Below are positions 23,530 through 64,000 of a stretch of DNA of 64,000 nt, in pieces. The notes under the pieces are model-generated. The model was not told the DNA's origin, did not search any database, and worked only from the letters and a program-made list of their open reading frames with translations. Origin of the DNA: Paramacrobiotus metropolitanus. Taxonomy: Eukaryota > Tardigrada > Eutardigrada > Parachela > Macrobiotidae. Position 1 is the stretch's first letter, and each line of letters begins with the position of its first letter. The DNA lies in contig NW_026570281.1 in assembly GCF_019649055.1 (NCBI RefSeq), positions 248,001 through 312,000 of the forward strand, in the 5' to 3' direction. The position numbers and the translations under genes are program-made.

Positions 23530-25348
23530 TCAGCAGGCGCGCTCTTTGTGCTGCTTGGCCATGAGAGCGCTGAGGTCTTGGCGCAGACGCTGCACTTGCA
23601 GTTCCTGCTCCTCGATCAGCTGCGGAGTGACCTTCATGGCCTAACGACGACAATAACGAATCTTATCATTTTACTTCCACTTGTAAGTGAACTACACCTG
23701 TAAGTGTACTGATGGTTATATAAACTGCTCCAAAAATGTAACGCAAAAATGTAACGAACAAACGAAGTCGTCATCGGCGCCTGCCGTTTGCAAACATGCA
23801 GCAGATGCACACTCAGCAAAAGGAAATATTTCTGAGTGATCAGTCAGTTAATGAATGCCTTACCACGGTCAAAGGCTGGTAGGGATTGACGTGGACGTCG
23901 GGATGGGAGCGCATCTTTTCCGCGGGCGCTGACTGGCCCAAGACGCTGCAGTTGTCGGAGCCCATGTAGCCCTGGTTGCTGGCGTTGTAGATGGCCGCCG
24001 CCAAGCTGGCGATAGCAGTCGAGTCGCGGATGATGCTGGTCGCCGCTGCAAACCAAACAAAACAATCAGTGAGCGGCTCTCTTCGAATAATATCTCTTTC
24101 AGTCCAAAACACATAGAAATTCCATGGGCTGATTATTGCGTGCACCTGTCTCTCAACAATACGGTTTTCACTTTCACGGATTCGCAGAAAATCTGAATAA
24201 GAAGCTGCGGTACAGTGGCACATTTAGCACGACCAGGAGTAAAGTTCTTGCGAGCCTTAAAAATGTAGCAATAACGGTGGCCTCAAACCTCACACGTTCC
24301 GAAACAACAGGTGCATTGCAAGTTACAACACACACCTTTAAAACCTTTAGGCAGCTGCTGCGTCCCCTTCAGATCCAGATCCATGTCACTGGCTTCGTAG
24401 TCCTCCAGGCGTTTCGCCCAGAACACCTGCCAACACCAGCCAAAATTAAATGAGGGTCACTTCACTTCCGCCAGTCAGGCCATCCAGTTCAACAACGTAA
24501 TTCTATCTGTCAAATTTAATCTGATATCTTCAGAAGGAAGTTAAGTAGTCAATTTTCGCCGAGTTTTCGGTTTATAAAACAGGATAAATGCAAATATAGC
24601 GCTTTTGCCTGTGGGATAAAACGGCTATACGCACGCAAAACTGGCTGCTGTACTTCGGCTGCGAACGTATAGTCCATCTGCACTCTGCAGGCCCAGTGTA
24701 CGCATAGCGAATACCGTGCGGATCAGGCTACTGCTATTACCGTACCTGCAAAGGCTTGGGCTTGAGGTTTCTGGGGAGGTGGGTGGTGATGGCCTTGGGA
24801 AGATCTCTAGCCTCACGGCAGACATTCTGTCCGGCGCTTTCCACCACTTTGACCTTCTGGTTATAGATGCAAGTGCACTGGCGCACCGGGGCCTCTAGCA
24901 GCTTCTGCAGCGTCGCCAGACTGCTTCCAGCGCCGTTGCGCGTGAGGGGGCCGCTGCGGGCGGCACTGTTGACGTGGGGCTTGCGCATCGCTCCACCGGC
25001 CCCGGGAGCACCCCCGGCCGCAGCGGCATTGCCGGAGGTGTAGGGGTAGTTGCTGAGCATCTTGCCCGTCTTGAAGTCGAGATTGGAGAGATCCAGGCGC
25101 GTGCCGAAGAAGCGCGCCAGGTCGGCTTTGGAGCGGAACTTGGTGCCGTCGGGCGCGTAGTAGTAGACCAGTTTCTGGCCCGGATTGACCACGCCCGCCC
25201 CCGAGCGGACCATCTCTTCGCGGTACCAGCCCTTGGGGAAGCCAGGGGCTTCCGAACGCTGCTTGACATACGTCACACCGCGCTCTGTCTTCCCGCAGGT
25301 CTCATCCGCGGGATCGGCCGCGAACAGCTGCCGCACAGCCTTGTCCAT
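23530..25348 (-). CDS. Methyl-CpG-binding domain protein MBD2/3
   Basis: Subunit of the NuRD/Mi-2 deacetylase complex in the nucleus. Four exons (25348-24746, 24426-24336, 24045-23864, 23640-23530) join in frame to 328 aa. The MBD is near residues 36-95 (GWYREEMVR, VYYYAPDG, KFRSK, LDLSNLDFKTGKM), followed by a Gly/Ala linker. Exon 2 starts with VFWAKRLEDYE, matching the FWEKRL block of MBD2/3. Exon 3 carries a segment (SIIRDSTAIASLAAAIYN) aligned with the family helix that follows PKGLQG. The last exon encodes the C-terminal coiled coil (LIEEQELQVQRLRQDLSALM) that binds p66/GATAD2 in other animals. MBD1, MBD4 and MeCP2 lack this C-terminal layout. The Asp that contacts methylcytosine appears replaced by Leu, while the neighbouring Tyr is kept. 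The gene is head-to-head with CWF19L1. Confidence 0.92.
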
Positions 25349-26733
25349 ATTTGATCAAGAGCGGGAGACGTGGTTCGGTGAACGACGAGAGGGCTACAAC
25401 CAGACAGACGAAAACAACAGTTATGGGGTGGCAGGGGTGCGAACGCTGTGATCGACGTCCAGGTGAAGGGAAATAAAATGGTAGATCCCGAAGCTGCAAA
25501 AACTATCAGATCATGGATCAGGTGGTACGATATTCCAATGACTGTGGCCGATATTATGATAATATCTCGCAACAGCCACGCCAGTTAGGCTCAATCTTCT
25601 TACACTCAGGCGCAAATCAGTTCACTGCCCACAAATGTATGCTTATTCCGAACCCTGGCTGGCAGACTACGAGATCACGCCACTTGATATTTTGATACAA
25701 GGAAAGTCGGCAGCGCGGTGGCTTCCCCTCGGCAGAGACTTATTGATAAGTCGAAGGCTCAAAGCAAAGTGACAGAGCTCAGATGCAGATCATCAGCCCT
25801 TTTCAGCGTCAGCGAACCGATCAAGCTTCTAATACCATCCAATACTAGCTATTTTCCAACAGTGCCCTGCAACGACCAACAAATACAGATACTTAACAGC
25901 AAAAGTTTCCAGTCTGCAATGAGGCTCACAATCTTACGCGCGGAATCCTCCTTCACATCCACCCAAGCTAAACACCACTGATACATAGGTAAGTACACTA
26001 ATAACACTCCAACGGCGAACTCCACTTCTTAAATCCACTATGCCAGCAAAAAATACACTGGTCACTAGATATAAGATAAGTACGAGTACAGACAACACTC
26101 GCACATTCTCGGTTCAGAACTTTGGGTTTCGGAATTAAGATACGAATATTAATGAACCAGAATTGAGAATGGGAAAGCAGTGTGCCATTCGACAAGTCAT
26201 TCGAAGTCTGCCTAGCGTGGAAAACTGAGAAAACCATCGAATCCGTGAATTTTTTCCTGTATTACCTATACTTCTATATGTACCGTAGGTCCGTAGTATG
26301 GTCACAGGACGGGTGCCATATTGCTAATTTTTACATTAGATAACCCCCACAGGCATCCAGTCACGTAAATTAGGGCCTTCAATAGAGTATTATAGTTTTA
26401 ATATATTGATTATGTGGAATAGCCGTGCATTGAAGTGCCTGGCGAAAATCTTTCGATTGGTCGGTTTATTTAGAAATTAAATAAACCGACCAATCGAAAG
26501 ATTTTCGCCAGGCAGCTTCAATTCGGCACGGCTGGCAGCTTGTTTTCGCAATCGCGTCACTGTAAACAGTCACTGCAGTGGTGTGGTGAGAAAAAAATTT
26601 ATTTGGCAGTACACAATACAGTAAGTACTTGATTAATTTTTTAAAATACTGTAGTAATCGTAACATTGATGGTTGAATATTTGGTAGAAGTCTTAATCGA
26701 CGGAACACAGGAGAACATCAATCCGCGACCAGC
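25349..26733. other. Head-to-head promoter region of MBD2/3 (-) and CWF19L1 (+)
   Basis: About 1.4 kb without coding exons. It must hold both promoters. Its main structure is the long inverted repeat at 26421-26533. I see no TATA box that I can assign. Confidence 0.55.
26421..26533. repeat. Fold-back element: 36-bp perfect inverted repeat with 5-nt loop
   Basis: Arms 26437-26472 and 26478-26513 are exact reverse complements around the loop gaaat. Pairing continues imperfectly outward to about 26421 and 26533 (agccgtgcattgaagtgcc against ggcagcttcaattcggcacggct). It contains no ORF. Candidates are a small fold-back transposon or MITE, or a transcribed hairpin. It lies about 200-300 bp upstream of the CWF19L1 start codon. 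Confidence 0.85.
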
Positions 26734-35700: not shown

Positions 35701-38700
35701 CCCTTCGCGGCTTCCTCAGCGGCGTCCACGTCCGACAGGGTCGACTGACACTGTGCGCCCATGAAGGCGCTTGGGCATCTACAGCGATGCACTCATACTA
35801 CACCCAGAAATTCTCTGAACTGCAACAGAACGAACAGCTTACAAGCAAGTGGGATCATCGGACTCCGCTCCCGGCAGACATGTACCGCCGTTCTCGCAAT
35901 AGTCCACGCATTTCTCATGAGTCTCGCAGCGCTCACCCAGCCAGCCCACCGGACAACTGCAATACTCATACTTCGAAGGTTTTTTCATGGCGAAATACCC
36001 AAAAAGTTTCTTACTCGCAGCGGAAATTGGTCACCTCGTCCTTAACACATTTTGCTCCGTTTAGACACTGCAGTGCGTAGCAGTTCAACGCTTTTTCGCA
36101 CAGTGTCCCTGCAAGCGTGCCCGAATGTAATTCCACAAACAACCAGTTAAGAACGCGTAGGACATCCTGACAAAAGGCGCGAAGAACAAAAACCAACCTA
36201 CCACTGAATCCAGGAGGGCAAATGCATTTGTTGACCTGTCGGCCGTCTACCTTGACCAGGGGCCCGCAGGTGGCGTTATGCCGGCACGCGCAATTTTCGT
36301 CCACTTCGCAGCGCAGACCACTGCGCCCCGGAGGGCAGTTGCAGCGTGGTGGGACACCATGAATGCAATTTCCGCTCGCGCAATACGCCTGGCACAGATC
36401 CTTCTGACAGCGCTGTCCCGTGAAACCGATGCTGCAATTACACCGCGGTTTGCCGCCGGTGATGTGGCACGTGCCATCGTTCTCACACTTGAACGACTGG
36501 CACTCTTCGCAGCGATCCCCAGTGAATCTGCTGACAAAAGGAATGATTATCACTGAGAATCGTCTACCGATATGGAATCAAAAGGCTAAACGCACTCTTC
36601 CAGGCATCGGCATTTTTCCGCGCCGCTGGTGCTGTCTACATAACAGATACCGCCGTTCAAACAGCGTCCGCAGGGGCCCTCGCCCCATTCGCATTGATCT
36701 CCCGTGAACCCTAAATCACACTGGCAATAGGCGCGTCCGTCTTCGCCTTTGAAACAGCGACCACCGTTTTTGCACAGCTTGTCACACTGGTCCACCGGCT
36801 TCTCGCACTGCTGGCCGCTCCACCCGCTAAGACATCTGTGAATGCAGAACAAATTAATTTCCATTCCAGAAAGGAACACTGTGATGCACTGACTGGCAGT
36901 GGATCTGGCTGTCCGGACCGAGGCTGCAGGTGCCATTGTTCTTGCAGTGTGTCGAGCAAAGGTTGCTCTGACAGCGCTCTCCCGCGAAGGGCATCTTACA
37001 GCGGCAGCGTGGGACGGTGGTATTGCCCTGTTCGTCGAAGTAGCAGGCGCCGTTGTTGTAGCAGTATGTGGCGCACTTGCTCACGGCACACGTCGGTCCA
37101 GAATACTCAGCGCTGCATCTGCATTACGCAAAAACAAATAATAATCCATAAAACATTTAAAAAATGCAACAAAGAGACTAGAAAAGGAAACTCGTTCGCT
37201 TACCGACAAACAAATCCATTACCAGATAACAACTGCAGACATTTGCCGCCGTTCTGACAGGGCGGAATGCAGTTGCCGGGCGTGGCTTCACATCGTCTAT
37301 TCTGTTCATTGAAGATGGAGTAACCCGGACAGACGCACTTATATCCAGCTGGCGGCTCAGGCACGCAGACGCGCTGCCCTTCGCAGGGATTGGATTGGCA
37401 AAGCGCCGGCACTAATCAGAGTCAAACACTCAGCTGCTGCAAAAAGGCCGCCAGAAAGCACGACTTACACTGGCGATTTTGTTTGTGCTCCTGCACAATG
37501 AGCAATCGCGCTGGCCTCCGCAATCCCTTGGCTAGCAGAGTGGCATTGCCGGCACCCCACTTGTTAATCTTGAAGACGCTATGACTGGAGTACGTCGATA
37601 CGTACAGTTCATCCTCGAAGACGTCGATGCCATAGGGCTTCTCTTTTTCTGCTCACAGAAACCACATCAGTGATCACAACAGTCCCGTCCATCAAAAGTT
37701 TAAAAAAATCTTACCAAAGAGGGAGTGCTTGATAGAGCGCCGGTCCCTTCCCTCCAACGTGATGGTCTCAACCGATCCCGTTTTCGGATCGGCCCAGTAC
37801 AGACGCCGGTTGGCGTAATCAATGGCCATTCCCGTTGGGTAACGCAGGCTCGCTTGCGCCAACACGCGCCGATCACTACCGTCGTAGCGCGCGCGTTCGA
37901 TGCGCGGTCGCCCGGAGACGTCGCTCCAGAAGACGTAACCGGATTCCGGATCTACCACCAGATTGTACGGGTCCGACAATTCACTGGACACCACCGGACT
38001 GCGCAGAGATCCGTTCAAGAGAGCCGTCTCGATGTGCTTACTGTGCCCATCAACCCAGAAGAGCCGCTTGTTGACCCAATCCACAGCCACTCCGCGTGGC
38101 TCCACAACGTTCGATACCTATGAACAAAAATTAATCTAAATATCCAGATGGTTATCTTAAGCCTCCAGCAATGCAAAGTGCAAAGGACAAAATAACATGC
38201 CAAGATCATCGGTTTGCTGTGGTCAAAATCGGCTCGTTCTTTCCTTCGTTTGGGCACCGTCTGCCGGAAGATGCCATGATTGTCGCGGCTGCTCCAGTAG
38301 AGCACCGCGTCATTTCCCGACAAGATCTCCACATCCATAAAGGTCATCCGCTCCTCCTTAAAGGCCATTAGCGGCCGATAGTCCGCGCGTCGGTGATACG
38401 GATCCAGCCGGGTCAGTTGGCTGTGCTCGGACACCAGCAGATAGGCAGCGGCTCCCTCGGCGACACAAGTCTTATTTCTGCCGTGCATCAGCATTCGATA
38501 TCCGCCATCGCAAATACAGTTGAAGCTGTCACCGTTATTGTCCCAAGCACAGCGCTGCGAGCACAGCCCGTGGCGATCACAGGGATTTTCTTGATCAGGG
38601 CACGCCTCCTCGTCGCTGCCGTCACCACAATTATCAACCCCGTCGCACAATACCTTCTCTGACTGCAGACAGCGTCCATTAGCACAGCGATACCGACACT

Positions 38701-41700
38701 GATGACCCGGGCAATACAACTCATCCGATCCATCAGCACAGTCTTTTCGGCCGTCGCACTGCTGCCACGGCAGAATGCACAATCCACTGGCGCAGCGAAA
38801 CCGATCGGCGAAGCAGGGGAAACGCGCACACAGCCCAGGTTCCTCGTCGCTACCGTCGCCGCAGTCGTTATCGCCGTCACACAACCACGTTTTGGTAATG
38901 CAGCGTTTGTTTTTGCAGGTGTGCTCATCGGGTGCACACGTGTAGGCACAGTTGTTCTCATCAGAAGCGTCTGGACAATCGATCACCCCGTCGCACTTCC
39001 ACTTGGCTTGCACGCAGCCACTGCCATCGCGGCACGCTGTATAGCCTTCGGCGCAGGGCGATGTGCAGTTCAGCTCATCGCTGCCATCCTGACAGTCCGC
39101 CTCACCATCACACTGGAACTTGGCATCAATACAATGTCCGTCGCAAGCCACTTCGTTGGAGCCGCAGTTCATCTCCGGCTCGTAGCATTGCGCTTCGTCT
39201 GAGTTGTCGCCGCAGTCGTCCTCGTCGTCGCAGACCCATTTGCGCGAAATACAGCGGCTGTTGTTGCAGGTAAAGAAGGAAGTGGTATCGCAGTTCCCGG
39301 GCAGAAGACAGGCGTGCGGCCACTCATCAGACCCGTCCGAACAGTCATTGATGCCGTCGCAGCGGCGCGCCTCTTCGATACACTGTCGGTTGGCACAGCG
39401 GAAACTGTCGTTGCGTCCACAGGGCAGCATCGTACAGTTGATAGCCGGCATTTCGTCACTGCTGTCCGTGCAGTCGCCCACTCCGTCACATACCTTTTCG
39501 GAACCAATACACTGTCCGGTGCCGCACTGGAAGCGCAGCGGCGGCATGCAGTGCTTAGGCACGAGGCTTCCGCTGATGTTCCTAGTGCAGTTCGCTTCAT
39601 CTTCGCCTAGTCTGCAATCCGGACGACCGTCGCAGCGCATGGACATGGGAATGCAATGGTTAGACTGTGCGCACTTGAACTGGCTAGACAAGCAGCGATA
39701 AGAAGGACAATCGACCACCGAGCCGTCCTCGTCGCTTCCGTCAGCGCACTTAAAACGTTACAACCAACACATATGTCAGTTTAAACAAATAATTTCTAAC
39801 AGACTGCGCACCTGTTTTATGCCGTCACATATTGCCGTCGGATGTAGACAGCCTTTGCCGTCCACACACTGAAATTCGCCGGGTGTGCAGCCAAATCGAT
39901 CTCCACAGTTGAACCCGTTCACTTGCTCGTCGCTTCCATCTGCAAGAATATGATATAGCAAGTTTGGACAGTAGTATTTTACGGCGTCCCGTAACAAACA
40001 ATGCGTACGGCTGCAAATGCCTTAAATTAAGCATACCTCCGCAGTCGTCTTGGCCGTCACACACCCACCATTTCGGAATGCATTTAAAGGTTTGGAGACA
40101 TACAAACTGCGCCTACAGCGATTAGAAAATACCTTTAGCATCCATCATCTGTTAGCGGTGCTTTTAAGCAACGACACACTCAAACGGCGCAACGTACCTG
40201 TGAACAATTGGCCGCGCACGTTTTCATATCCCGCTGCAGTGCAAAGCTCTCAGGACAGGCACAAACCTTACCAACCGGTCTCTGGCTGCTATTGGTAGGT
40301 TTAAGCAGGCACAGATTGCTGCAGCCGCCGCCTTTGGCGCAGGGATTTGGGCCGAATGCCAGTGCAGCCTGTCGGAAGGGGTGGAACACCTGCAGATCCA
40401 TGGGACGATGCGAGGACGCTGACACTAGCACAGTCATATTGCGGCCGGTGAACTTGTGCGCCCGATGGATCTGTTTACTCTCCCAGTCAGTCCAGTACAG
40501 GAAATCCTCAAAGACACTCATCGCGAAGACGTGACCCAGTCGCTCCGTCGGCGTCTGGCTCTGCGAGTTACTACGAATGCGACGGCGGTTCTGCAGGTTC
40601 AAATCAGCCATTGCGATATAATCCAGATGCGCGTCTGCCCAGAAGAGTGTGTTGGTAACATAGTCGATGGTTAATGCATTAGGCCAGAACAGCTCCGTAC
40701 GGTCCAAAATGAGCCGAAAGGGCGGCGATCCGCCATCCATGGCCATTTTTCCAATATGGGCGTTCGTTCCCCAGTCTACAAAAGAAGTCTTCTTTCAAAT
40801 CATATATCAGCAAACGCCCCCACAATCGCTGCGACGTACCTGACCAGTAAAGGTAACCATGGTGCGGATCAACAACAAGCGCCCGGGGCTCGTGCAGGCC
40901 CTCCTTAAGCAGAATCTTTCGCCAGCCGCCGTCAAAGTTGGATACTTCAATGGTGTCACTACCCTTGTCGCACCAGTACAGGTTCTTCCCGATCCAGTCG
41001 ACCGCCATTCCGTCGGGGTTGGACAACGAGGAAGAGTGCAGAACCTTCACCTCGGGAAGGTGCGAAGCGTTGTGCTGATTAAGGCACAGTCGATTGATGG
41101 TGCTGCCGGTTGGCAGGACATCCGACCAGAAGACACACTGACTGTCCCAGTCAAAATCCACAGCCACCGCACTGGACAGGTTGCCGGCCAGCAGTCGCCC
41201 GCCTACCTGCGCAGTATCGCCCCGCAGTAACACAGTACGTACAGAATGGCGCACGGTATACAGCATGTTGGGCGTCACATCGGAGCTGGCCTTACACAGA
41301 CGGCCGGAGTCGATGGCGGTGTAGTTGTGAGCGCAGACACAGCGATAGCTGCCGATGGTGTTGTAGCAGAAGTGGCTACATGGGAAGCGCAGGCACTCGT
41401 TCTCATCCACGCATTGTCCGCTGCGGTTGCTCATCACGTAGCCCTGCGAGCAGTTACACCCGTATCCGATCCGCTTTTCTATGCACACGCCGTGCGGCCC
41501 GCAAGGGTTGGACTGACAATCGTCCTGGTCGCATCCCACTTCATCGCTCAGGTCCTGTCACAGCGCACAAATACAGTCAGCCAATAATGATACTTCCGCC
41601 TTTTTAATCCCAATACTTACCCCGCAGTCGTCAGCGTTGTCGCATACTAGAGATTCGTTCAAGCACTTTGCGTTATTGCAGCGAAATTCCGCAGGTGCGC

Positions 41701-44700
41701 ACTGCGTGCTGTCGGCATCCGTTGTTACCGCACTGGTGTTCGCAATGCGCCGCACATCACACATTTCCTTAATTTCATCTGTAGAATCTCCGCAGTCATT
41801 CTGCAAAGCAACAATGTGGACAGCTTCAGTCAAGTTTGGAAGCTACGTTTAACAATGCTAAATCAAGGTCTTTTACCAGGCCATCACAAATAAATTCCCC
41901 TGGAATGCAGCGATTGTTTCTGCAGCGGAATTCGTTCATTGCGCACCTCGACATGCCTTCTGCAAGTAGCATTTAATTTTTCATTTTGCAAAATTGTACA
42001 AGAGTTACCAGCCGGCTTACCGCATCCTTCTGTCTCATCGGATGTATCATTTTTGCCGCAGTCACTGTCACCATCGCATCTGTGCAGGAAATCAAAAATT
42101 AACCAGTCTCTGTCAGCAGCGACACCGGCAGTATTCATGGAACGCATACCTCCAGTCTGCCGGAATACAAAGGCCGGATGTTAGGCAGCGAAACTCACTG
42201 TCGGAACAGTTGGTCTTCTGGCACACCTCGACTGCTTCGTCACTCCCACCTGCGATGGAATCAGCACTTATATATTGTTTAAATACTCCGATTATGCCTT
42301 GACATTTAAAATGCACTTAAAGCAACCGCAAACAACTGCAATGAAACACGATGTCATTAAAAAAGCGCCATTACTATTCGCCTGCAACCGGCATCGCCTT
42401 CACGGCTCACATCGTGCCAGTATCGGTAAGGGCGATGTGGAAACGTGTACGTCACTGTGCTAAAGAGCTTGGCCTTGCTTTTCATCACGGACAGATGTGT
42501 CCCATCCCGTGATATGCGCCGATCTTCTTGACCGGATACCGTAATTCTCACTCACCAGGACATTCCGGCACACCGTCGCACTTCCAGACGGAAGGTATGC
42601 AGGATCCATCGGAACACTGGAAGGAGTTGGGTGGACACTGGCTGCTGCAATTGAGCTCATCCGATTTATCGTGACAGTCGGGCTCGCCATCACAGCGCCA
42701 GCCCGGCGGAATGCAACCTTGTCCGGTACTGCAGCGGAACCAGTCGTTGCTGCAGACCATCGACGGGGCCGCAGTGATGGCTGTCGTGCAGTTCTGCTCG
42801 TCAAAGTTGTCTCCGCAGTCATTGTCACCATCTGTCAGGAACATAACAAACCTTATAACCAAGCAAAAACATCTGCTGCGTTACATACCGCAAAGCCATT
42901 CCGGCAAATAGCACATCGACGAGTGCGGGCACGGGAGCATCTGTCGTCCATCCGGGGTGGTTTCGCAGTCTTTACCGGCGCAGCCGATTTCATCGCTGCT
43001 GTCCCCACAGTCCTGAAAGCCAAGACAACACCCGTTGGTCAATGATAACAGTTGAATCTTCCGTAGCGAAAAATTAAAAACATCGCACACTGTGATGCTG
43101 GCCCAAATCAATGAAGTAATTCGGCTATACAATTACAAACTGACCTGTTCTCCGTCGCAATGGTACTCGTTTTTTATGCATTCTCCGGTTGTCTTGCATT
43201 TGAACTCACTTTCATTGCACACTATTTAATGTCAGAAACAAGTCAGCAAGAGCAGCTCAGGATCAATTCTGATCGACAGCCACAAGCGGATGCATTAAAG
43301 CCTAAGGTTACCTAACTCGGCACTTCACGCTGCTTCTAAAAGTAATCTTCAGCTTACCGCAATCGCGTTCATCTGATCCATCACCACACTCATCGCGTCG
43401 ATTACAGCGCAGATTGTCGGGAATGCACCTCCTCGTTGTTTTACAAGCAAAAAATCCAGCAGAAACAGGGCAAACCCGGTATTCTGTCGAACATTTTGCA
43501 TGCCCTTGAATGATTTTTGCAACAAACCAAAATAAATCTTACTGCAGTAGTCGACGTTTTCATCGGCCCCATCCTGACAATGTCGTCGGCTGTCGCAAGT
43601 CAGCAACAGCGGGATGCATTGGCCATTGGATGGGCACTTGAACTGATCCGGTGGGCAACGCATCGGTCCGGCGTCACACGTCCCGTTGGGCAGCAGGGTG
43701 GCATTGTTGAAACAGTGACAGACAACGCCGGTGCCGTTCTCTGTGGGCACGCACATGTCTGAGCAGTTGCCGTTGTTCACGAAGCACGGATTCATCCGGC
43801 AGTCCTGACTGCTGTTGGCCACAGCTACGATGCCCATCGGCTGCCGTCCTAGGCCTTCGCGAATCTTCACCACGTCCAGACCGGTGTGCTTGTTGGCGCG
43901 TACGATGGCCCGCAGAATCCAGTCAGTCCAATAGATGTGCTCGCCAAAGACAGCCAATGCGAACGGATGTCTCACGTTTTCCCATAAAAGCACCTTCATC
44001 GGAGATTGCAAACCGTTCACTATTTTGGCACTGTTTACAGGAAAGATGAACGCGATGCAATAACATTTCTGTGCCATCACTGACCTTCCTGTCTCTGCCA
44101 TCAAAACGGCAGCGTTCAATTTTGTCTAGCAAGGCATCGGCCCAAAACAGGTACTGACTACGATGGTCGATGGTTATGGCATTTGGCGTTTTAATGTCCG
44201 TATCAATGATGTCCTCCAGTTGGCGACCATCGAAACCGGCTCTCTGGATGCTCGGTCGATCTTTATTCCAATTTGTCCAGTACAACATTCTACATGACAA
44301 CAAAAGAGAATCCTTGCGAAAGCGATCAAATGGCCAATTACATCAATTAATTCAATTGTCTAGAACTATAAAAGATGGAAGATTGTAACTTACTCTCTGC
44401 AGGCATCCAAAGCCAGATTACGCAGCTTATCCCCAACTGTCAACTGGATAACGCGCTGAGGTGAAGATGAACGGCCAGACCGACCAACCGACATGCGGAA
44501 AATGGAGGCATTGTTATAGCTGGTCCAGTATAAATTCGATGTCATGGAATCAAAAGCCAACCCTTCCGCAGAATGGATTCCTAAACAGTTTGCAAAATCA
44601 TAACTGTCACTTGTCTGACATACGTAAGCTGCTGACTACCGGTAAGAATATATACGAGTCTGAGAAGGTATGCACAAGCAAAACAAATTGCAAAGGCACG

Positions 44701-47700
44701 AAAATGCCATACAATTTCATACCAGATGCCATAATGCGAAAGTCCGTTCCGTTAAAGAAAACACTGCCGATCTCGCCCCGCTGGATATCACTATAGAAGA
44801 GCCGAGAATTGGCAAAATCAAAACCCAAACCGATGACATTGAGCATGAACGATGAGTTGCTGATGGGCGGCAGCGGATCATTCTTGTTCAGCTCGCCGGT
44901 CAGCGGGGCACTCTCCACACTCCGGCCACGCGAGTACAGCAGAAAGGACGAATGGACTGCGGAAGAACATCATACTGCAGAAGCCGTCTCTGTCTCATAA
45001 TGAATTGTTAACTTACTGTCGCAACTCTGTCCGTCCGGCGCTAAAAGTCCGTGAGCACAAGCACACTGGACCCCTGCAGACTTCACGGATGATGGACTCT
45101 TCGACTCAGGCAATGTATTCCCGATGAAGAAACACAGCTCTTCACAGCCTCCATTATTAACAGCACACGGATTGCTACCTGCAAAGATAACCAACAATCC
45201 AGATCGACGGTTTATATCACGAAGTACAAACCGAATAAACGCGGCAGTATAAACAGTGGATTTGTGCATCCGCTATTAACTGGCCGTTCCAAAATGAAAA
45301 TCACATCAAGTGTACCTTTTTGACGATCTTTACTGAAAATAACCAGGTCATTGACAGTTGCATTGAGATCTTGACGCACCACGGTTGCCGAGCGTAGATC
45401 AGCCTTATCCGCACGGTAAATTACTCCTTTTTGGTTGTTTCTGTAAATTATTGCTCAGTCACTAAGATCGCTATCAGTTCTCCGGCAACCGGCAGGCTGT
45501 CGCCTCGGACCGGCTCAACCAGTAAAAGAGTTTCGACGTACTTATCAGTCCAGTACAAATACTGCTGGAAAACAGCTAAGGCAGATGGGCTACCGGGCAG
45601 AGATTGTTCAACAGCACTGATCAAACTAATTCGACCGGAGAAGTCCAGGTTTGCCCGTCCTAAAGGAAGACAACTTCCGGGTCCTCTTTTACATTAGTAA
45701 CATCGTATCGTTCGCACAAAAAAAACTGAATTAACCTACCAATGAGATGTGCTAGGGCGTCGCACCAGTAAATGTGCCCCAGTTCATAATCCACCGTCAT
45801 GTCCGTGATCCGCCCGGACAACGTCAGACTGAACCGGCCACTTCCGTCCAAGAAAGCCCGCTCGATGCGGGGCCGGGTGGCGGCGTTGTCGCTCCAGAAT
45901 AAGTAGCTAAACGTGGCCAAGTACAGATATAACCAATCAGGCAACCACCCAGCAGGACAATCAAACACATTCTGACGAACAAGAGCATGCAGGAAGGAGT
46001 GTCATGCAGTAAGTAGGTTCATCAACCAAACGCCACAACTGTCAGCAACCGGATCGTTGACGTTCGCATGCAGCACAACATGGTCCTACCCTTTGGCGGG
46101 ATGAACCGCGATGGCTTTGGGTTGGTCCACTTTGTCGTACACCACGACATATCTGGAGGAGCCGTTTAAGCGGGCTACTTCGATACTTTTTCCTGCCGGA
46201 TTGGTCCAGTAGATGTTACCTGTGAATGAATACAATTCATCACTGCACTTTACCAAGCGAAAATCAGGGACGTTTCGGTGTTATACCGGCTATCCAGTCC
46301 AGCGCAATATCTTCGACGGAAGTGATTCCTTCCTGTAGGATCACTTGCCGGCCCGTCAAATCACGTCGTATGCGGTTTAGCGTCGACAATTTGGGATCAA
46401 CCCAGTAGATATACGAGTTCTCTTCAAAACAAATTTGACCGGTTAGGATCACCGCAGATGCACTTAACTAGGAGTGCAGCTACAAGGCAGCTCTGCCGAG
46501 TAAAAAGTTTTAAGTGAGTGATAGATGTACGAAAACAAACGCACCGGCCTCAAAATCCAACGCAGCAGCCAAAGTGATTCTCGATAAGGGCGGTAGAAGC
46601 TTCTCGGTTTGACTGATGTCCAGACTTATGCCATGAATCTGCATTGGAATGGCGCTTGTAGAGTTGAACACATAATTTTCATTGCAGCTTCACACATCCC
46701 CGGTAGGTCAACAATACTACTGTAATTTTTATTTGTCAACGTATCGATACCAAACCAAAACACACGCACCTGATTTCCCATTGAAAACAACAAAGTGGAG
46801 TTAATGGGCATACACGCTGTTGGCTGACCATCCTGTGAATGAAAGACATAACCGACGGTGCAGTTGCAGGTTCTGCCAGAAACAAATGACGGCAGACACA
46901 GTTGGGAGCAGCCACCGTTTCTTTCCGAACAAGCGTTGGACCCTTTAATCAATAATAACAGCTCCTTAGAAAACTATACTCTGTTAAATAAAAACACAGG
47001 CAATGCTTACCAGTTTGCACCTGCGGACTGAACATCTTCAAGCTGACGACGGGCAGATTATTGGACCGGATAACGGTGAAGTTCATGTCCGCCAAACGCA
47101 GTACCCCCACCGACAACTGCGGATGCCCCAACGCAATCAACAGACTATCGTCGTAATATGCAATCGCTAAGGGATTGCTCAGCTGCACAGCCGACAACGC
47201 CTCCACTTGTGGACACCGCCCTCGTGTCGCCTCCGCATGCAATGTCGGCAACCGGCAGAACTGAATCTCTTCCTCCACACGGCTGATCCAGTACAGAAAA
47301 CCCTGTCGCTTCCCGTATCCAAAGGTCAGACACCGTGGGAAATTGACGCCGCGAGCACCGGCGATCTTGGAGCCAGAAATGCTAGATGCCTCGTCAATGA
47401 ACACTCGCCGAGCGTCTCCGTTCATAGCTGACAGTTCAATGCGGTGCTTAGCGAACCCGATATCAGCCCAAACCATTGCACTGTGCAAAACACCACAAAA
47501 CGCATTCAATCAATAAAAACAGAGATCAAAACGGAGCTACCAACCCAGTAACAGAATCGACGGCAACGGATATAGGTGTTTTGATTCCATCTTTTACTAG
47601 AGTCTTCCGAAACTCTCCAGAAAGCGTAGACACAACGATTTCGCCCGATGTCGATGCTATACTCAGTTTTCCAGCAGTGTAATCAGCGGAAAATGTGGTA

Positions 47701-50700
47701 TAAATGTTTCGTGAAATCCAGTCAATGGCAATATCAGTCGGACGAGGCGTTCCTGCACAACCAGCCAGTTAGAGAAACAACTTCACGAACAGAACACAGA
47801 GAAAATGTCACCAGGTGAGTCAATAATGGTTTCGATAGAAGTTCCGTTGAGAAAGCCGCGTACGACGGTCTTGGCCTTGGTCTCCACCCAATAAACGCTG
47901 TCCGTCTGAACGTCGACTTCCATACTGGTGGCATTCTGCACGTTGATCACGGCCGGGATAAAGTTGTGATAGCTAGCATCAAGGGTGACGCCACGAATCT
48001 CCGTGCTAGCTGAGAAGACCATGAAGGTCCGAAAATCTGTAGAAACGATTACCATAAAGGCAACACCAACGGCGCTTTCTCTCTGATGGAAAATCTATCA
48101 GTTAGCGAGCCCAGCCTGTACTTACGCTGACACTGTGTCGTGCTGCCTTCCACAAATTTGGTCAAATGCGGGCACACACAACGCGCAGTTCCTCCCAGTC
48201 CAATTACGCACAAATGGGAGCACCCGCCGTTTTGATTCGCACACGGGTTGCTCACTAAAACGTTCGAATGATGCACTAGAACGAAAGCAGCTGGCTGATA
48301 TTTACCAGGAGAACTACAACTAACCTTTGGGCTGAAGGGAGGAATGCATTACGTGCAGGTCGAAAGGCTGTGTTGTCACCTGCACAACAGTCTCGATATT
48401 TGATCCATTCCACTTATTGGCCTGCCAAAGCATAAGTTCAGATTTTGCGGTAATTAAATCAGAAAGTTATTCAAACGGGCGACTGACTTTGTGGATAGCG
48501 TTGGTTCTCCAGTCGGTCCAGAAAACGTGCGAACCATACACAGCCAACGCAAAAGGATGCTGAATAAAATCTCCACCCCGCAGAATTTCGCGGAGATCGT
48601 GCCCGTCAATGTCCACGGTATAAATAGCATCCGAACTATGGGCAAAGTGTCTCAGAGACAGCACGAGTCCGCTATACGTACAATGCACGTAGATATTACG
48701 CCTACTCACTAGGCGTCAATCCAGTAAACCCGATGCGGCCGCATTTCCAGATCCATAGCCAAGCCGTTTGGCCAGCGGCCTCCCTTTACGCTGCTGACAT
48801 TGACCAGGACGCTGCGATTTTCCCCAGCCATCGACGCTCGCTCGATTCTGGGAAACTCAGGATCCCAATCACTCCAAAACAGCCACCTACGCAATTAATC
48901 CACATCTCATACCGTAAATAACACACAAATAACACACACAAATAACACACAAAAAACAAATAACATACATCTCATTCCGTAAATAACACACAAGTTATGC
49001 ATACCGCCAGCACATGGTATCACAGCTACAGTGTACCGAGACAGACGTTAGGCCTCACCCTTCTTGTGGATCCAAGGCGATAGCGCGGGGATTGTGCATG
49101 CTACCGGCAATGATGGTTCCGCGACGCTGGCCGTTTAATTTCGATACTTCGATCTGGTCCAGAGTGCTTTCCACCTTAGCGAGAAAAATATACAATACTA
49201 CCGCAGTCCATGTTGCTGATAGCCATTGAGCGTACCCAGTAGAGATTTTTAGCCACATAGTCGACGGCGATACCTTCGGCCGTCGGTATAGAATTTTCCA
49301 CTACCGTTTGGATATTGAAAACGGCTGCAATTTACGAAATCATTACAGAATATCGACAAAGCCCTACAGCAGTGATGCAGACCTGAATCAACAAGGCTGC
49401 CGGAGAAGATCTTGTCGTCAACAACATCCGTCCAGAATATCTGAAGCGGTTTAATTGTTGTTATTGAAGGAAATCCGACTGAACCCTACTTTATTTTCTA
49501 CCTGCTGGCGATCGCCGTCCCCAGTGTCATAGAGAAAGTCAATAGCGATGGTGTTGCGCAGAGAAGGCACCAGAACCGGCTGGATGTCTGGCTCGCGCAG
49601 GTTGAGCATGCGTATCTCGTGTCGGCTGGAGAATATCAGATAGGCGCTGCGGTTGTCTAATAGCAACAGCAGCTGTAAAAAAAATCTCCGAAGTAAAATG
49701 TTTGTGCAACATACCAACGCTATCGCATGTGAACTTGTCCTGCGCCAACTTGAACCCGGGGTAGCAATCACACACATAGCCGGTGCCCGTTGCCAGCGAG
49801 GCGCACTTCTGACTGCAACGGCCCCACAGCCAGGGATTGGAGCGGCCATCCGTGTCGGGACAGCCTTCCTTTTCTGTCAGTTAAACCATGCGAATTACCA
49901 ATTTTTATTCGATCAGTCGTTACTACGTCATACTTATGCAAGTGCGACTGTCTTCCGGATCCAAAGCGTAGCCAGCCGGACACAAGCATGTGAGTGTACC
50001 GTCGGGCAGCGGCTGGCAAGTGCCATTAATACAGGTGTCGATGTGGGCAGTACACTGTTTGTTATCTACAAAAACACAGGAACCATTCACACATCGAAAT
50101 CTACTCGTACTGCAAGTATATAATCAGTAAACAACAAATCTCTTACAGCACTGCGGGCCCTCATCACTGTGGTCGTCGCAGTGGAAAGTCCCATCGCAAA
50201 ACTTGTTCAAAGGCACACATAATCGCTCTTTGCTGCCACAAAGGCGCTCGTCGGGTTGACACTTCAATGCCTTTGTTTCTAAAGTGCAAGAAACAAGTGT
50301 TTTTAAATCAAACAAGTACTTCCGGTACGTGGTGTTACCGCAGCCCTTTTCGTCGGAGCCGTCTAAACAATCCACACTTCCGTCGCAGCGCCACTCTTTG
50401 AAAATGCAGCGCGAACGATCCTCACATGCAAACTCCTTTTCCTTATCACAGCCTACAACGCAGAATAAGGCACCGATCTATATGCAGTCCATCACTGCCA
50501 CGCGCAGAACACGTACCGCAGCCAAGCTCATCGCTGCCGTCTTCGCAATCTATGAATGCGTTGCAGATTTTACTTTTATTAATGCACGCTCCATCCCTGC
50601 ATCGGAAGTCGGTTGCGGCGCACTGGGTGCTCGGACTACCAGAGTCCCCTGTAGAGAGCACAACCACCACATCAAGCATCTTTTCGTCTATACTTACACA

Positions 50701-51850
50701 CTCGCTTACCGCAGCCAATCTCGTCCCGTCCATCGATGCAATCATACACACCATCACATTGCTTAAAACAGAAGAGTTTTCTAATAGATAAACAGATACC
50801 GGGGACCTGCAGCTAAACATACCTTCGTTAAAGGAAAACAGGAAGAAGTTTTGGCATTAGCAGGACAGAAGAAGTCCCGGTCTTTGTGGCAAGTGTTGCT
50901 GCAGTTGAGCAAGTTTTCGTCGGAAGAGTCGCGGCAATCAGCCTACAACGCACATCGTCCAGTAAATACTGTCATATAACGCTGGACGCTTTACTTACCC
51001 GACCGTCGCATATATACTGTAAAGGGATGCATCGACCGTTGGCGCAACGAAATTCCACAATGGTGCAAGGTCGATCCCGGACAGCCACTGCAAAGCAGAA
51101 AAACACGGGATGAATCTCGCTAAGATAAAAATGTTTTACCGACAATGCAGCAGCAGCTACTACTGCTAGTGACATAAAGTCGTTACTGTCTCGGTATCGG
51201 CAGCATAACCGCACGCATTTCTTGGATGCACGTCTCTCATCGGTATCTGAGTAACAGAGATAATCCGATAGTTATCAGGCGCGACTTACCACACGACGCA
51301 GGTTCATCCGCGCCGTCTTGGCAGTCCGCAATGCCATCACAGACGTAATTCTTTGGTATGCACGCCCGCCCACCATCGCAGCTTATCTCCGTGTTCCCAT
51401 TGCACGTCGACTGTGCAGCGTGGGAATCGCCTGCAAAGTACAAACAACCAAAATAAACCCCAAAAATGCGTCGACGGCTGTGTTATCCTAGAAAAGGCGT
51501 TTTACGCAAAGACCGACAAAACTGAGAAATGACTTCAAATGAAAGTCCAATTAAACATTTTGGCCAAACTCCCAAGAGAAATCCCCCAAAAGGGTGATGT
51601 GCCCAGAAATTTCAAAGTGCGAATATTTCCTGCTGTATTAATTTTAAATACGGTAGGGTTGCGGGGAAGCAGCCAGCATGCAAAGAGAAGTAAAGCACCT
51701 ACCAATTACTGCGGACACATCCGCGCGGGGAGTGTGGGTAGAAGCAAGGGATCCGGGGGACAGGACACCAAACAGCAAGAGGAAGACTGCAGTAATACTG
51801 TTGCAATTGCGGGCAAGACGAACGCTGCTCGCACACGCAGGGGCCTCCAT
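35283..51850 (-). CDS. LRP1: Low-density lipoprotein receptor-related protein 1 (LRP1) orthologue
   Basis: Giant single-pass endocytic receptor. The gene runs about 16.6 kb over roughly 45 exons, not all of whose junctions I fixed. Order from the N-terminus: signal peptide; 6 LDL-receptor class A (LDLa) repeats; 2 EGF; four YWTD propellers separated by single EGFs; 9 LDLa; 2 EGF; propeller; EGF; 11 LDLa; EGF; propeller; a run of EGFs; membrane helix; cytoplasmic tail with NPMY and NPIY. The string FANPIY, spaced like the LRP1 FTNPVY, and the many juxtamembrane EGFs separate it from LRP2/megalin, which has few. The 11-repeat last cluster equals human cluster IV, and the whole order equals human LRP1 from cluster II onward. 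Cluster I and the first two propellers appear absent. The start rests on the signal-peptide exon (51850-51703), whose phase fits the first LDLa exon (51430-51290). Confidence 0.93.
35700..37500 (-). other. LRP1: LRP1 juxtamembrane EGF repeats
   Basis: About nine to ten EGF-like repeats on several small exons, for example [83 protein letters not shown] and [10 protein letters not shown]. Human LRP1 has six, so this run looks longer. Confidence 0.8.
37570..38600 (-). other. LRP1: LRP1 EGF and last propeller, with basic patch
   Basis: [14 protein letters not shown], then a YWTD propeller ([46 protein letters not shown]). After the first blade lies KRRKER (38234-38251), where human LRP1 has its furin site. 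The donor of this exon is not clear. Confidence 0.8.
38600..40200 (-). other. LRP1: LRP1 third cluster: 11 LDLa repeats
   Basis: Eleven repeats. Most sit in one exon of about 1.5 kb that opens near 39749 (CADGSDED) and runs on into the propeller. Repeats include [39 protein letters not shown] and [13 protein letters not shown]. The count equals human cluster IV. Confidence 0.9.
40205..41545 (-). other. LRP1: LRP1 EGF pair, fifth propeller and EGF
   Basis: A calcium-binding-type EGF pair ([21 protein letters not shown]) precedes a YWTD propeller ([47 protein letters not shown]) and an EGF ([15 protein letters not shown]). This matches human propeller 7 and its flanks. Confidence 0.88.
41545..43790 (-). 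other. LRP1: LRP1 second cluster: EGF plus 9 LDLa repeats
   Basis: After an EGF ([14 protein letters not shown]) come nine LDLa repeats, from CPPDQFKC to CAPAEFRC, many split by short introns. Human cluster III has ten. One repeat is completed only if an exon starts after cgacag near 43489. Confidence 0.8.
43790..50067 (-). other. LRP1: LRP1 EGF pair and four-propeller block
   Basis: An EGF pair (about 50067-49725) is followed by four six-bladed YWTD propellers: about 49700-48330, 48055-46990, 46800-45290 and 44970-43790. Single EGFs separate them ([42 protein letters not shown]). Blade strings such as [44 protein letters not shown] and [18 protein letters not shown] mirror human propellers 3 to 6. 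Confidence 0.85.
48903..48993. repeat. Duplicated 26-nt unit with AC-rich simple repeat in an LRP1 intron
   Basis: catctcataccgtaaataac (48903 onward) recurs with one mismatch at 48968-48993. Repeated ataacacac words fill the space between. This is a local slippage-type duplication. Confidence 0.7.
50150..51430 (-). other. LRP1: LRP1 first ligand-binding cluster: 6 LDLa repeats
   Basis: Six repeats with six Cys each and the calcium-binding D-x-S-D-E type end, for example [26 protein letters not shown] and [13 protein letters not shown]. Two repeats are split by introns. By position before the four-propeller block it corresponds to human cluster II, which has eight. Confidence 0.85.
51703..51850 (-). 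other. LRP1: LRP1 exon 1: signal peptide
   Basis: ATG at 51850, then a hydrophobic core ([16 protein letters not shown]), then donor G|GTAGGT. The phase (1) matches the next exon, which starts GCGATTCCC and leads into the first LDLa repeat. This supports it as the true start. Confidence 0.75.
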
Positions 51851-53997: not shown

Positions 53998-54005
53998 TAT
54001 ATAAG
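53998..54005 (+). promoter_or_regulatory. TATA box (TATATAAG) of the repeat-exon gene
   Basis: TATATAAG lies 152 bp upstream of the start codon at 54157. A transcription start near 54030 would leave a 5' UTR of about 125 nt without an intron. It is the clearest core promoter in the window. Confidence 0.6.
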
Positions 54006-54156: not shown

Positions 54157-56401
54157 ATGGTTCTGGGCTGGTTTCAAACTCCTCTGAGTCGCGATCGCGC
54201 CAACTCCTTTTCGCGCCATGTAAGTGCACAAATTCCGGTCCCTGTGAGTGTAATCCATTTTCTCACCGCGTTGATTACGACTACGAGTACAGAAATACAT
54301 ATGTAATTACTGACTTTAATTGCTACATAATTATTACTTTGGGTCTGTTTACTAGTACTATTACAGCCGCATGATTATACATAGTACTGTATATCTCGTC
54401 TGTTATTACTTAAAACCTAACTATTAATAACTATTAATAATTTATAAGATTCAACGATATAACAAAGGCGTAGTGCTTTAATATATAATTTAATACAGAC
54501 TTGGTCAGTACGTACGAGTACATATTCAAAACGCTTGCTTGGGCTAAATTGCAAAATGGCCTTTTGTCCAAATAGAATCGCTATTGTATGTACGATAGCG
54601 AGTAGAATTCATTTTGCAGAAAAATGAATTACCATATTATCATGCACCGCAGATCTACTCTACGAGGTAGAGATGTGCGGGGCCAAATTAAAAGTGAAAA
54701 TTACTTTTAATTTTACACGTAATGCGATGTTTGTAAGTACCGTGCACGCAAATTTATTAGAATCCATGGTGTGTAGCAGGTGACCTTTACAGTACGCTGA
54801 TACCGCTTTTCATCCCTGGCTTCTTGAATTTGCACAGGAGAACGCAGCGGAGCCGGCGATTATTCAGGAGCAGTTGCAGAATCGGATCAATCAGGCCGAT
54901 CCAGCACCGGCGCAGCCGCAGCCACAGCGACGACGATCGATCTTCGAGCGCCGCGTTAGCCTCGGATCGGATCCCTTTAGCCGCGAGGTAAGGCTCCCAC
55001 AGCCCCCACTAAATCGCTGTATTGTACAGTGTACAGTGATCAGCAACCGATTTTGTATTTCATTCGCGTTAACCTAACAAACAAAGAGACTGACAAAAAA
55101 ACTACAGAAGAAAGTTAAGCGCTCGTAACACCATCTTAATTGTCAGTTGTGTAAATTTATGTTGGTTTGAATTGAAAATGTACATCGACCGTATACATGT
55201 AGGTTGGAAAAATATCCAATTAGTTAGAGATAAGTTTACATTAAAAACCACACAAGGCTTAGAAACTACAGATCCATAGAATATTACTCAACATAGTATA
55301 AGTAAAACTTTAGAAGTATGTACTGTACTTTGCATGACTGCATAAAATCTATTTGACTATGCAACTCTGAACGTTTGACTAGCAGAGCTGTTAGCAATAA
55401 GATAATAGTGTGTCGAGTCATTTAATTACGAGTACGGCATCCTGTATAAGTGAACGTCAGTATTTTTTCTTTTATAATTTATGTGTTTAAAGAAACGATT
55501 ATCGATTATTCGATTAAGGTACATTTTATTTTATATCGATATTAACTGTCAATACTATGTATTACTCACCATCAGTATAATTATTTATATTACTGTTTAG
55601 CGCACGTAATTTGATTGTAGGTAAAGATCGTTAAATTAATAGCTATGGACCTATTGCTCCATTATAAAAATCTTTAATTACTGCAGTATGCGGATCAGAC
55701 TGGTGACCTCTGGGTGGCCGAATGCGATCAAGGAGATGCGGCGCATATTGCGGAAGGACACCTGAGGACGGAAGCTCTGACGCGCCCGGTGCCACTGGGA
55801 GCCGACGAATTCAGCCGCGAGGTATTTCTGATTTTCTGACTGGTTACCAATCTACAGTGTAGTCCAGGTGCAAATTACGAAATTCACCCGTAATATTCTG
55901 CAGTACTTCGATGCCACTGAAGACAACTTTGTGGCCGAAACGGATTTGGGTGACTCGGGATATGTGCGCCGCAATTCGCAGACCGTTGTCGACTACGACT
56001 CACCGGAAGTCATTCGTCGCATCGGGGAAATGCTACGCCGACCAGTTCGCGTGGGCCACGACACTTTCAGCCAAGAGGTATGTACGAGTATTAAAGATGT
56101 AGCTCATTTGTGGTAGGTAATCAGGTAAACCTTACCAAAATTTCAATATAAAAACCGTTTTTCTTTCGTTACCTACTTATGCAGTATGCCCGCGAATTCG
56201 AGGACATGTGGCAAGCCACCGCCGGCAAGGGTCCATCCGGAAAATATACAATCGTTGAGCGCGTTATGAGCGAGGTAATCTGGATGAGTATTTGCATGCT
56301 TTAAGTAATCCAAACTAGCGCAACCATCATTACAGTATCAGCCGGACAATCGCAACGCTGAACAAGGAATGCCGCGTCGTCAGAGCATCTTCTCGCAATA
56401 A
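54157..56401 (+). CDS. Unrecognised 237-aa protein built from repeat-bearing exons
   Basis: I do not recognise this protein. Six exons (54157-54219, 54838-54987, 55687-55821, 55868-56077, 56185-56274, 56336-56401) join at phase 0 every time, and every exon is a multiple of three. Exons end in a related motif: SFSRH, DPFSRE, DEFSRE, DTFSQE, VMSE and finally SIFSQ before the stop. Exons 2 to 4 share a longer end, R-x-V-x-[LV]-G-x-D-x-F-S-[RQ]-E, and most following exons start with Tyr. No signal peptide, membrane helix or known domain is visible. The protein is hydrophilic and probably largely disordered, with one possible ordered part in exon 4. Exons look like products of repeated exon duplication. 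A TATA box upstream and two AATAAA signals downstream (56696, 56722) frame the gene. Intron 55822-55867 is only 46 nt. Confidence 0.75.
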
Positions 56402-56701: not shown

Positions 56702-56833
56702 GTTGTACATAATCTGTATGCAATAAAGTGGCAAAATCAGTTCGTGATGCAGTTTTGAAAAATTTTGTCCAACATTTGAATACAAACAAATACTCAGTAC
56801 CAGAACACGGCTCTGTCGAATGCATTTCACTGA

Positions 56834-62578: not shown

Positions 62579-62584
62579 TTTATT
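62579..62584 (-). terminator. AATAAA overlapping the stop codon of the 470-aa gene
   Basis: On the minus strand GAA-TAA-AG contains AATAAA, with the stop TAA inside it. A T-rich stretch (ttctttttgtt) lies about 25 nt downstream, as a working poly(A) site would need. Confidence 0.4.
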
Positions 62585-63992
62585 CCTTACGAGCTGTGTG
62601 TCGCTCTGGACGCTCCCGCAGTGATTTTTTCCCGATGAAGCGATGTGCCGTCTTTTTGTTGCGCAGATTTCTCCCTGTCGGTTGCACTTGGCCATCGTCA
62701 TCTGAGATCATAATATCATCATCCGTTTCTGTATCGTCGGTATCCAACTCGTCCGTGGTGCTATGCTCGTCACTGCTACTGGAAGAGTCCGATGGAATCT
62801 GGATGACATCTGCACTTATCCGAGGAGCGCTTCCTCTGGCAGCATTTCCGCGTCTTGCGAGCAGCGCGGATCTTTTTGCCCGAACCGGCGGGTTCTGCAC
62901 CGACTTGGACCGCGTGACGCGCGTGCAATGACCACCCCCTTCCTTCTTTACCATGGCATCCCCTCGGCCACGGGCAGCCTGTTGGACTGGCTTATCGTCG
63001 ACTTCCTTCCTGCCTGCTCCGTCCGGCTTCCCCTTCATTTTCACAAATGCAGACGGTGGGGTGCTGGCACGCGGGCTCTTTTCTGCCGTCGCTCGCTTCG
63101 GTAAAAATACGGCGCGTTTCAGCGCTAAGGCCTTTCGAGGGGGCGTATCTTTAGGCGGCTCCGTGCTGGCCGCAACGGGGACGGTTGGCAGCGGTAGCGG
63201 AGCCACGACAACATCGTCTTCTACGGACGCTGCGGTCATAGGCTCATCTGCAAGAGTGACGACAGGAGCATTCTCAGTAATGGCCGCCACTGGACAGTCT
63301 TCTCCTCTCACCCACTGAAAATGCCCTAATCTGCGGAAAGGGACCTGCCCGTTGGAGTCCGACTGGGCGCTGACCAGGAATCGGTCCGCTTTATCCACCA
63401 ACACGGACAGCTCCCGCGACAGCTTCCCAGCTGTAATAGCAGACGGAGACGCCGATTCAACTGTACTGCCGTCAATGTCCATTGCGCGCAACGTACGCTG
63501 GAGCGCTTCCATCCACAGCCGCATTAAATGGAGCTGCAGCCGAGCCTTGGACAGGACTATGCTGGTTCCTCCAGTATGCGTCGCGGCCGTGGAATTCCCG
63601 TCGGAAACCGAGAAGCAAAACTGGCTGCCCTGTCCCTGCGCAGGATTATGGACCAGGATCACTGCGGGGATCTTGTCGCAGTCTTCCAGCATTCGCTGCA
63701 GAGTGACGGTGACTCGATCTGCAAGGTGGTCTTCTGCATGATTTTCATTGTTATGCGCACGGAGGATATTCTGCAACGCTGCAATACTCCGATTCAGCAG
63801 CGCTTTCAACGTCATGTGCCGCTGTACTGCATCTGTCCCCATTTCTCGGTTCTCATCTTGGCTTCCGCCTGCACCGTCAGGTCCCTTCATAACTGGCTTC
63901 ACTGCCTTGCTTCCAGCACTTAGCGCTGCGCCAGCTGATTTTGGACTGCTTCCATCCTGTCCTCCGGTTTCGTCGTTCAGCGATTTGTCCAT
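62580..63992 (-). CDS. Unrecognised intronless 470-aa protein with two SIM-like motifs
   Basis: I do not recognise this protein. The frame starts at ATG 63992, eight bases inside the window edge, so an upstream exon cannot be excluded. Residues about 60-240 are helical and moderately hydrophobic (LKALLNRSIAALQNIL, LQLHLMRLWMEALQRTL) and may fold. Residues 240-470 look disordered: Pro/Ala-rich, then Lys/Arg-rich (nuclear-localisation-like), then Ser/Asp-rich. Two hydrophobic cores sit in acidic or Ser-rich surroundings, VIQIPSDSSSSSDE (core at 62796-62807) and DDDIMISDDD (core at 62703-62714). These fit SUMO-interaction motifs. Together with the basic patches this suggests a nuclear protein. 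The stop codon lies inside an AATAAA hexamer (62579-62584). Confidence 0.75.
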   Translation of the reverse strand: MDKSLNDETGGQDGSSPKSAGAALSAGSKAVKPVMKGPDGAGGSQDENREMGTDAVQRHMTLKALLNRSIAALQNILRAHNNENHAEDHLADRVTVTLQRMLEDCDKIPAVILVHNPAQGQGSQFCFSVSDGNSTAATHTGGTSIVLSKARLQLHLMRLWMEALQRTLRAMDIDGSTVESASPSAITAGKLSRELSVLVDKADRFLVSAQSDSNGQVPFRRLGHFQWVRGEDCPVAAITENAPVVTLADEPMTAASVEDDVVVAPLPLPTVPVAASTEPPKDTPPRKALALKRAVFLPKRATAEKSPRASTPPSAFVKMKGKPDGAGRKEVDDKPVQQAARGRGDAMVKKEGGGHCTRVTRSKSVQNPPVRAKRSALLARRGNAARGSAPRISADVIQIPSDSSSSSDEHSTTDELDTDDTETDDDIMISDDDGQVQPTGRNLRNKKTAHRFIGKKSLRERPERHTARKE

Positions 63993-64000
63993 GGTGCCAG

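Follow-up and report, generated by a model that had tools for sequence, protein, structure and literature searches.

A tardigrade gene of tandemly duplicated phase-0 exons with a peptide motif split by introns, tentatively read as encoding a flexible motif scaffold

The tandem copying of symmetric exons is a familiar mode of gene growth, as in the genes for the titin I-band and for the fibrillar collagens. The six-exon gene described here, located at 54157-56401 on the plus strand of the analysed window, resembles these genes in that its repeat exons belong to one phase class and can be removed in frame. It differs from them in three respects: its repeat unit is centred on the exon join, its copy number is small, and no relation to a known family could be detected. 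That a small gene lacking known relatives should contain duplicated exons is not new in kind. Two further systems are of relevance for comparison. Tardigrades are known for desiccation-protectant disordered proteins (CAHS, LEA or similar), and like CAHS proteins the product of this gene is a hydrophilic, acidic tardigrade protein in which no Pfam domain was found; unlike them, it contains no CAHS motif, is nearly free of lysine and is encoded by six exons with internal repeats. The sequence R-R-x-S followed by a hydrophobic residue is the textbook PKA consensus. As in multi-site substrates of basophilic kinases, four R-R-x-S sites are present, three of which are followed by I or L, but here the sites are predicted ones and occupy non-equivalent places relative to the repeat. 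A literature search on exon duplication in tardigrades and on tardigrade PKA in anhydrobiosis returned nothing useful.

The window comprises 64 kb (contig C61, positions 248001-312000), and the genome searched is the 169.8-Mb assembly of 533 contigs to which it belongs. The features of the gene are listed in Table 1. After splicing the product is open throughout. The exons measure 63, 195, 135, 174, 90 and 66 bases (the stop codon counted in the last one) and are separated by introns of 573, 699, 82, 107 and 61 bases. A first-pass annotation had described all exons as multiples of three and all introns as phase 0. Both statements are correct, each intron is in addition of the GT-AG type, and all six neighbouring exons share one phase class. 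In a codon-usage model trained on a small number of frames from the receptor gene nearby, the claimed frame ranks top in exons 1-5, narrowly in some of them, and the two long introns are strongly negative. The TATA box reported earlier is indeed there, 152 bases upstream of the ATG. It is the sole basis for the suggestion that the gene could encode a highly expressed or inducible protein, and a search of the upstream 650 bases revealed neither a heat-shock nor a cAMP-response element in simple form. Rfam gave no match between 52000 and 58000 of the window.

Table 1. Positions of the gene features within the 64-kb window.
Feature	Position	Strand	Remarks
TATA box TATATAAG	53998..54005	+	Presumed core promoter; 8-mer occurs once per strand in the window
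Exon 1	54157..54219	+	MVLGWFQTPLSRDRANSFSRH; left half of join 1/2; claimed frame narrowly best of six by codon usage
Exon 2	54793..54987	+	65 aa, YADTAFHPW...RRVSLGSDPFSRE; start revised, other in-frame acceptor 54838; R-R-x-S at product residues 67 and 74
Exon 3	55687..55821	+	45 aa, YADQTGDLWVAE...RPVPLGADEFSRE
Exon 4	55904..56077	+	58 aa, YFDATEDNFVAE...RPVRVGHDTFSQE; homologue of exon 3 end to end; R-R-x-S at residue 153
Exon 5	56185..56274	+	30 aa, YAREFEDMWQAT...VMSE; head alone common to the repeat
Exon 6	56336..56401	+	YQPDNRNAEQGMPRRQSIFSQ and stop; C-terminal R-R-x-S at residue 233
Candidate poly(A) signal AATAAA	56696..56701	+	Second at 56722-56727

For exon 2 two in-frame acceptors are available. 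The first model used the one at 54838, which leads to a product of 225 aa. It was replaced when a head profile derived from exons 3-5 found the motif at 54793, in frame with exon 2 and immediately behind the acceptor ctttacag. The upstream acceptor is preferred because the 15 residues it adds open with YAD...W as in exons 3-5. The resulting head, YADTAFHPWLLE, matches the profile of the other three heads with a shuffle p of 0.0004, and none of 20,000 shuffles aligns as well with exon 3 alone over 18 residues. With exon 2 left out of the profile, 'YADTAFHPWLLEFAQENA' at 54793 ranks within the best 12 of the 64,146 positions of the window. A start at 54793 has the further consequence that every one of exons 2-6 opens with Tyr. 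The exon therefore most likely begins at 54793 and the predicted product comprises 240 aa instead of the 237 given earlier; the acceptor at 54838 may serve as an alternative splice site.

The homology between the exons is clearest for exons 3 and 4, which align over their full length (score 70, reached by none of 2000 shuffles), followed by exons 2 and 3 (score 46, again none of 2000). Exon 2 against exon 4 and exon 3 against exon 5 are matched by 16 and 8 of 2000 shuffles, respectively. Exons 2 and 5 have one or both ends in common with the repeat. Conservation lies in the tails (exons 2-4) and in the heads (exons 2-5); the middles vary. For exons 1 and 6, compared as whole exons, the match to the repeat is weak or absent. 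Growth of the gene by exon duplication, as proposed in the first-pass annotation, is thus borne out by alignments, profiles and joins for the neighbouring exons 2-5; in exons 1 and 6 the homology is weak or undetectable. We consider the gene anatomy together with the exon duplication to be very probable.

The exon ends listed earlier (SFSRH, DPFSRE, DEFSRE, DTFSQE, VMSE and SIFSQ before the stop) are all present, and so is the longer end common to exons 2-4. That end is however only the first part of the repeated element, which runs on into the next exon. The element is a motif of 25-31 aa across the exon joins, R-x-V-x-[LV]-G-x-D-x-F-S-[RQ]-E / Y-[AF]-D-x3-D-x-[WF]-x-A-E, with the slash marking the join. 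Three clear copies are formed by RRVSLGSDPFSRE with YADQTGDLWVAE (exons 2 and 3), RPVPLGADEFSRE with YFDATEDNFVAE (exons 3 and 4) and RPVRVGHDTFSQE with YAREFEDMWQAT (exons 4 and 5). A weaker copy, PLSRDRANSFSRH with YADTAFHPWLLE, is found where exons 1 and 2 meet. The copy at the join of exons 2 and 3 is identical in 19 of 31 positions to that of exons 3 and 4, and in 10 of 31 to that of exons 1 and 2. At the join of exons 5 and 6 no motif copy is recognisable, the score being no better than those of shuffles. Within the window the three tails score 47-50 with the tail profile (next best 19) and exons 3-5 score 50-61 with the head profile (next best 17), values which are high by construction as the copies themselves built the profiles. 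Judged from the joined peptides, the picture of the gene is one that shifts from motif-ending exons to a motif split by an intron.

The nucleotide differences among the tails of exons 2-4 are commonest at third codon positions (8 versus 3+3, 9 versus 4+3 and 10 versus 5+6). This excess points to selection on the tail peptide, which would be conserved as such since the differences gather at third positions. The DNA of the exon heads is too diverged to judge such a pattern. The exon-end pattern is also rare. The DNA pattern GANNNNTTYAGYCRNGAGGTR, which encodes D-x-F-S-[RQ]-E followed by a gtr donor, matches the whole 170-Mb genome at four forward sites, three of them in this gene; its reversed control matches once. 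The fourth match (L021) was rejected as a relative, being without a head or tail of the kind seen here.

We tentatively read the locus, with a confidence somewhat short of an even chance for the reading as a whole, as a tandem-exon-duplication gene for a flexible, multi-site-phosphorylated motif scaffold. A single-copy protein-coding gene would have expanded as one symmetric (phase 0-0) exon was duplicated in tandem. Every copy begins with the second half of a motif and finishes with the first half of the following one, with a variable linker in between. Splicing would unite the halves to three clear motifs and the weaker one at exons 1 and 2. The product may be a flexible cytosolic scaffold, in which the repeated motif, perhaps a short helix, could dock several copies of one partner. 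PKA or another basophilic kinase might then switch the binding by phosphorylating the R-R-x-S sites, and exon skipping might set the number of motifs. The functional part of this reading, the predicted flexible scaffold with docking motifs and several phosphorylated sites, is much more doubtful than the anatomy and the exon duplication, and a role in kinase signalling remains guesswork.

That any internal exon can be removed without a frame change, as noted earlier, is true arithmetically. In the computed joins the removal of exon 2, 3 or 4 brings together two halves of the same consensus, while without exon 5 the last motif would have exon 6 as its right half. The motif number could be tunable by skipping, because any skip of exons 2-4 restores an intact motif. 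The gene is a compact and readable case of gene growth by exon copying, in which the splice join lies in the middle of the motif, so that exon skipping keeps it. If several isoforms are expressed, it would offer a simple system for relating motif number to function; if there are none, a stress-tolerant animal still provides a well-delimited and testable gene for which no relatives are known. A long shot is a tardigrade-only family with splicing-tuned motif valency, whose kinase sites would gate assembly, possibly in entry into or exit from dormancy.

Of the kinase-site contexts suggested in the first-pass annotation, R-R-x-S stands out from the composition of the product, as R-R-x-S/T occurs above chance and only 2 of 50,000 shuffles reach the four sites seen. 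Only one of the four, however, lies within the repeated motif. The three others are outside it and need not share its function. For F-S-R alone we know of no kinase context. The product has a pI of 4.9 and a GRAVY of -0.83, contains 25 Arg and 2 Lys, and shows by reading no evident signal peptide.

The strongest rival is a structural, non-signalling repeat protein. The gene would equally be exon-duplicated, but the repeats would serve as structural elements of a single protein that folds or forms filaments (e.g. a cytoskeletal one), with no role for signalling or skipping. This is about as doubtful as the scaffold function itself. The conserved aromatics of the motif (F, Y and W/F) are spaced like a small packing core, and most exons are constitutively included by default, which suits such a protein. 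AF2, run on exon 4 with its sister exons, returned helices at low confidence (mean pLDDT 62, pTM 0.28); a prediction of this quality establishes neither disorder nor helix in exon 4. The hydrophilic overall composition argues in the other direction, as do the FoldIndex, which is negative across most 41-residue windows of the product, and the linkers between the motifs, which vary in length as well as in composition.

It is unlikely, but somewhat less so than the remaining alternatives, that the product belongs to a known animal family which has diverged past detection by sequence profiles. Small, fast-evolving, hydrophilic proteins are often missed by sequence searches, and the analysis was limited to searches of this kind, with the eukaryotic proteins represented by PDB and Pfam plus the own genome. 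Against such a family, Pfam gave no match better than E 0.15, even when each motif was scanned singly, and PDB none above chance. NCBIfam, scanned with the 225-aa version, gave no match at the curated threshold, and the prokaryotic, phage, GTDB and IMG/VR collections none above chance. The best hits, Pfam KorB_C (E 0.15), NCBIfam Lnb (0.1), a PDB aminotransferase (0.55-0.73), KempTIM1 (1.3) and phage matches (0.6), are all at chance level. No paralogue was found in the own genome with either the whole protein or the consensus peptide, and the latter recovered only this gene. A weak match to another locus (L015) lies in a frame next to a putative retroelement Gag frame and disappeared with the corrected protein. 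The gene thus keeps its description as unrecognised with respect to Pfam, NCBIfam, PDB and its own genome.

Slightly less probable still is a desiccation-protectant disordered protein (CAHS, LEA or similar), heat-soluble and induced by drying. The hydrophilic and acidic product would fit, and the genome is that of a tardigrade with CAHS-motif matches of its own. These were found with the sequences of CAHS motifs 1 and 2 taken from PMC11328126. Since the motif recovers 13 loci in other parts of the genome (best E 1.8e-9), the test is able to detect CAHS motifs, and these loci mark the genome as that of a tardigrade. In the present product, however, motifs 1 and 2 align no better than shuffles (p 0.72 and 0.43), BLASTP against two CAHS-motif frames of the same genome gives no match, and Lys amounts to 0.8% as compared to 5.7-7.4% in these two frames. 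That no simple heat-shock element was seen upstream likewise speaks against this reading. The CAHS reading fails on predicted motif content and composition. The at least 13 CAHS-motif matches come from 10 contigs, among which C4 carries three and C73 two.

That the likeness of the exon ends is an artefact of the splice-site consensus (GAG/gta, CAG/ta) on a chance gene model is scarcely credible. Splicing would account for the final E and for some of the donor match, but the likeness extends from 13 residues before the joins to about 18 after them, the homology of exons 3 and 4 runs end to end, and the signature is near-unique in the genome.

Some further observations were made in the gene and its surroundings. 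Intron 2 contains a dispersed repeat (55061-55210), pieces of which recur with 79-91% identity at about 14 other genomic places. The matches frequently form an adjacent pair in opposite orientation, reminiscent of a short inverted-repeat element. Divergent to the studied gene lies a large LDL-receptor-related gene with LDLa, LDLb and EGF domains (about 38015-51500, minus strand). Three more open frames are found on the minus strand of the window. That at 19560-22055 (831 aa) resembles by eye an inositol 5-phosphatase of the OCRL/INPP5B type. The frame at 24737-25354, also judged by eye, resembles a methyl-CpG-binding MBD2/3 protein, which would, if true, be of interest for DNA methylation in tardigrades. 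The third one (62580-63998, 472 aa) runs past the window edge and has no Pfam match. Elsewhere in the genome, at C14:1066177-1066566, an apparently intronless gene for a cytosolic fatty-acid-binding protein was noticed, the best solved relative of which is ReP1-NCXSQ.
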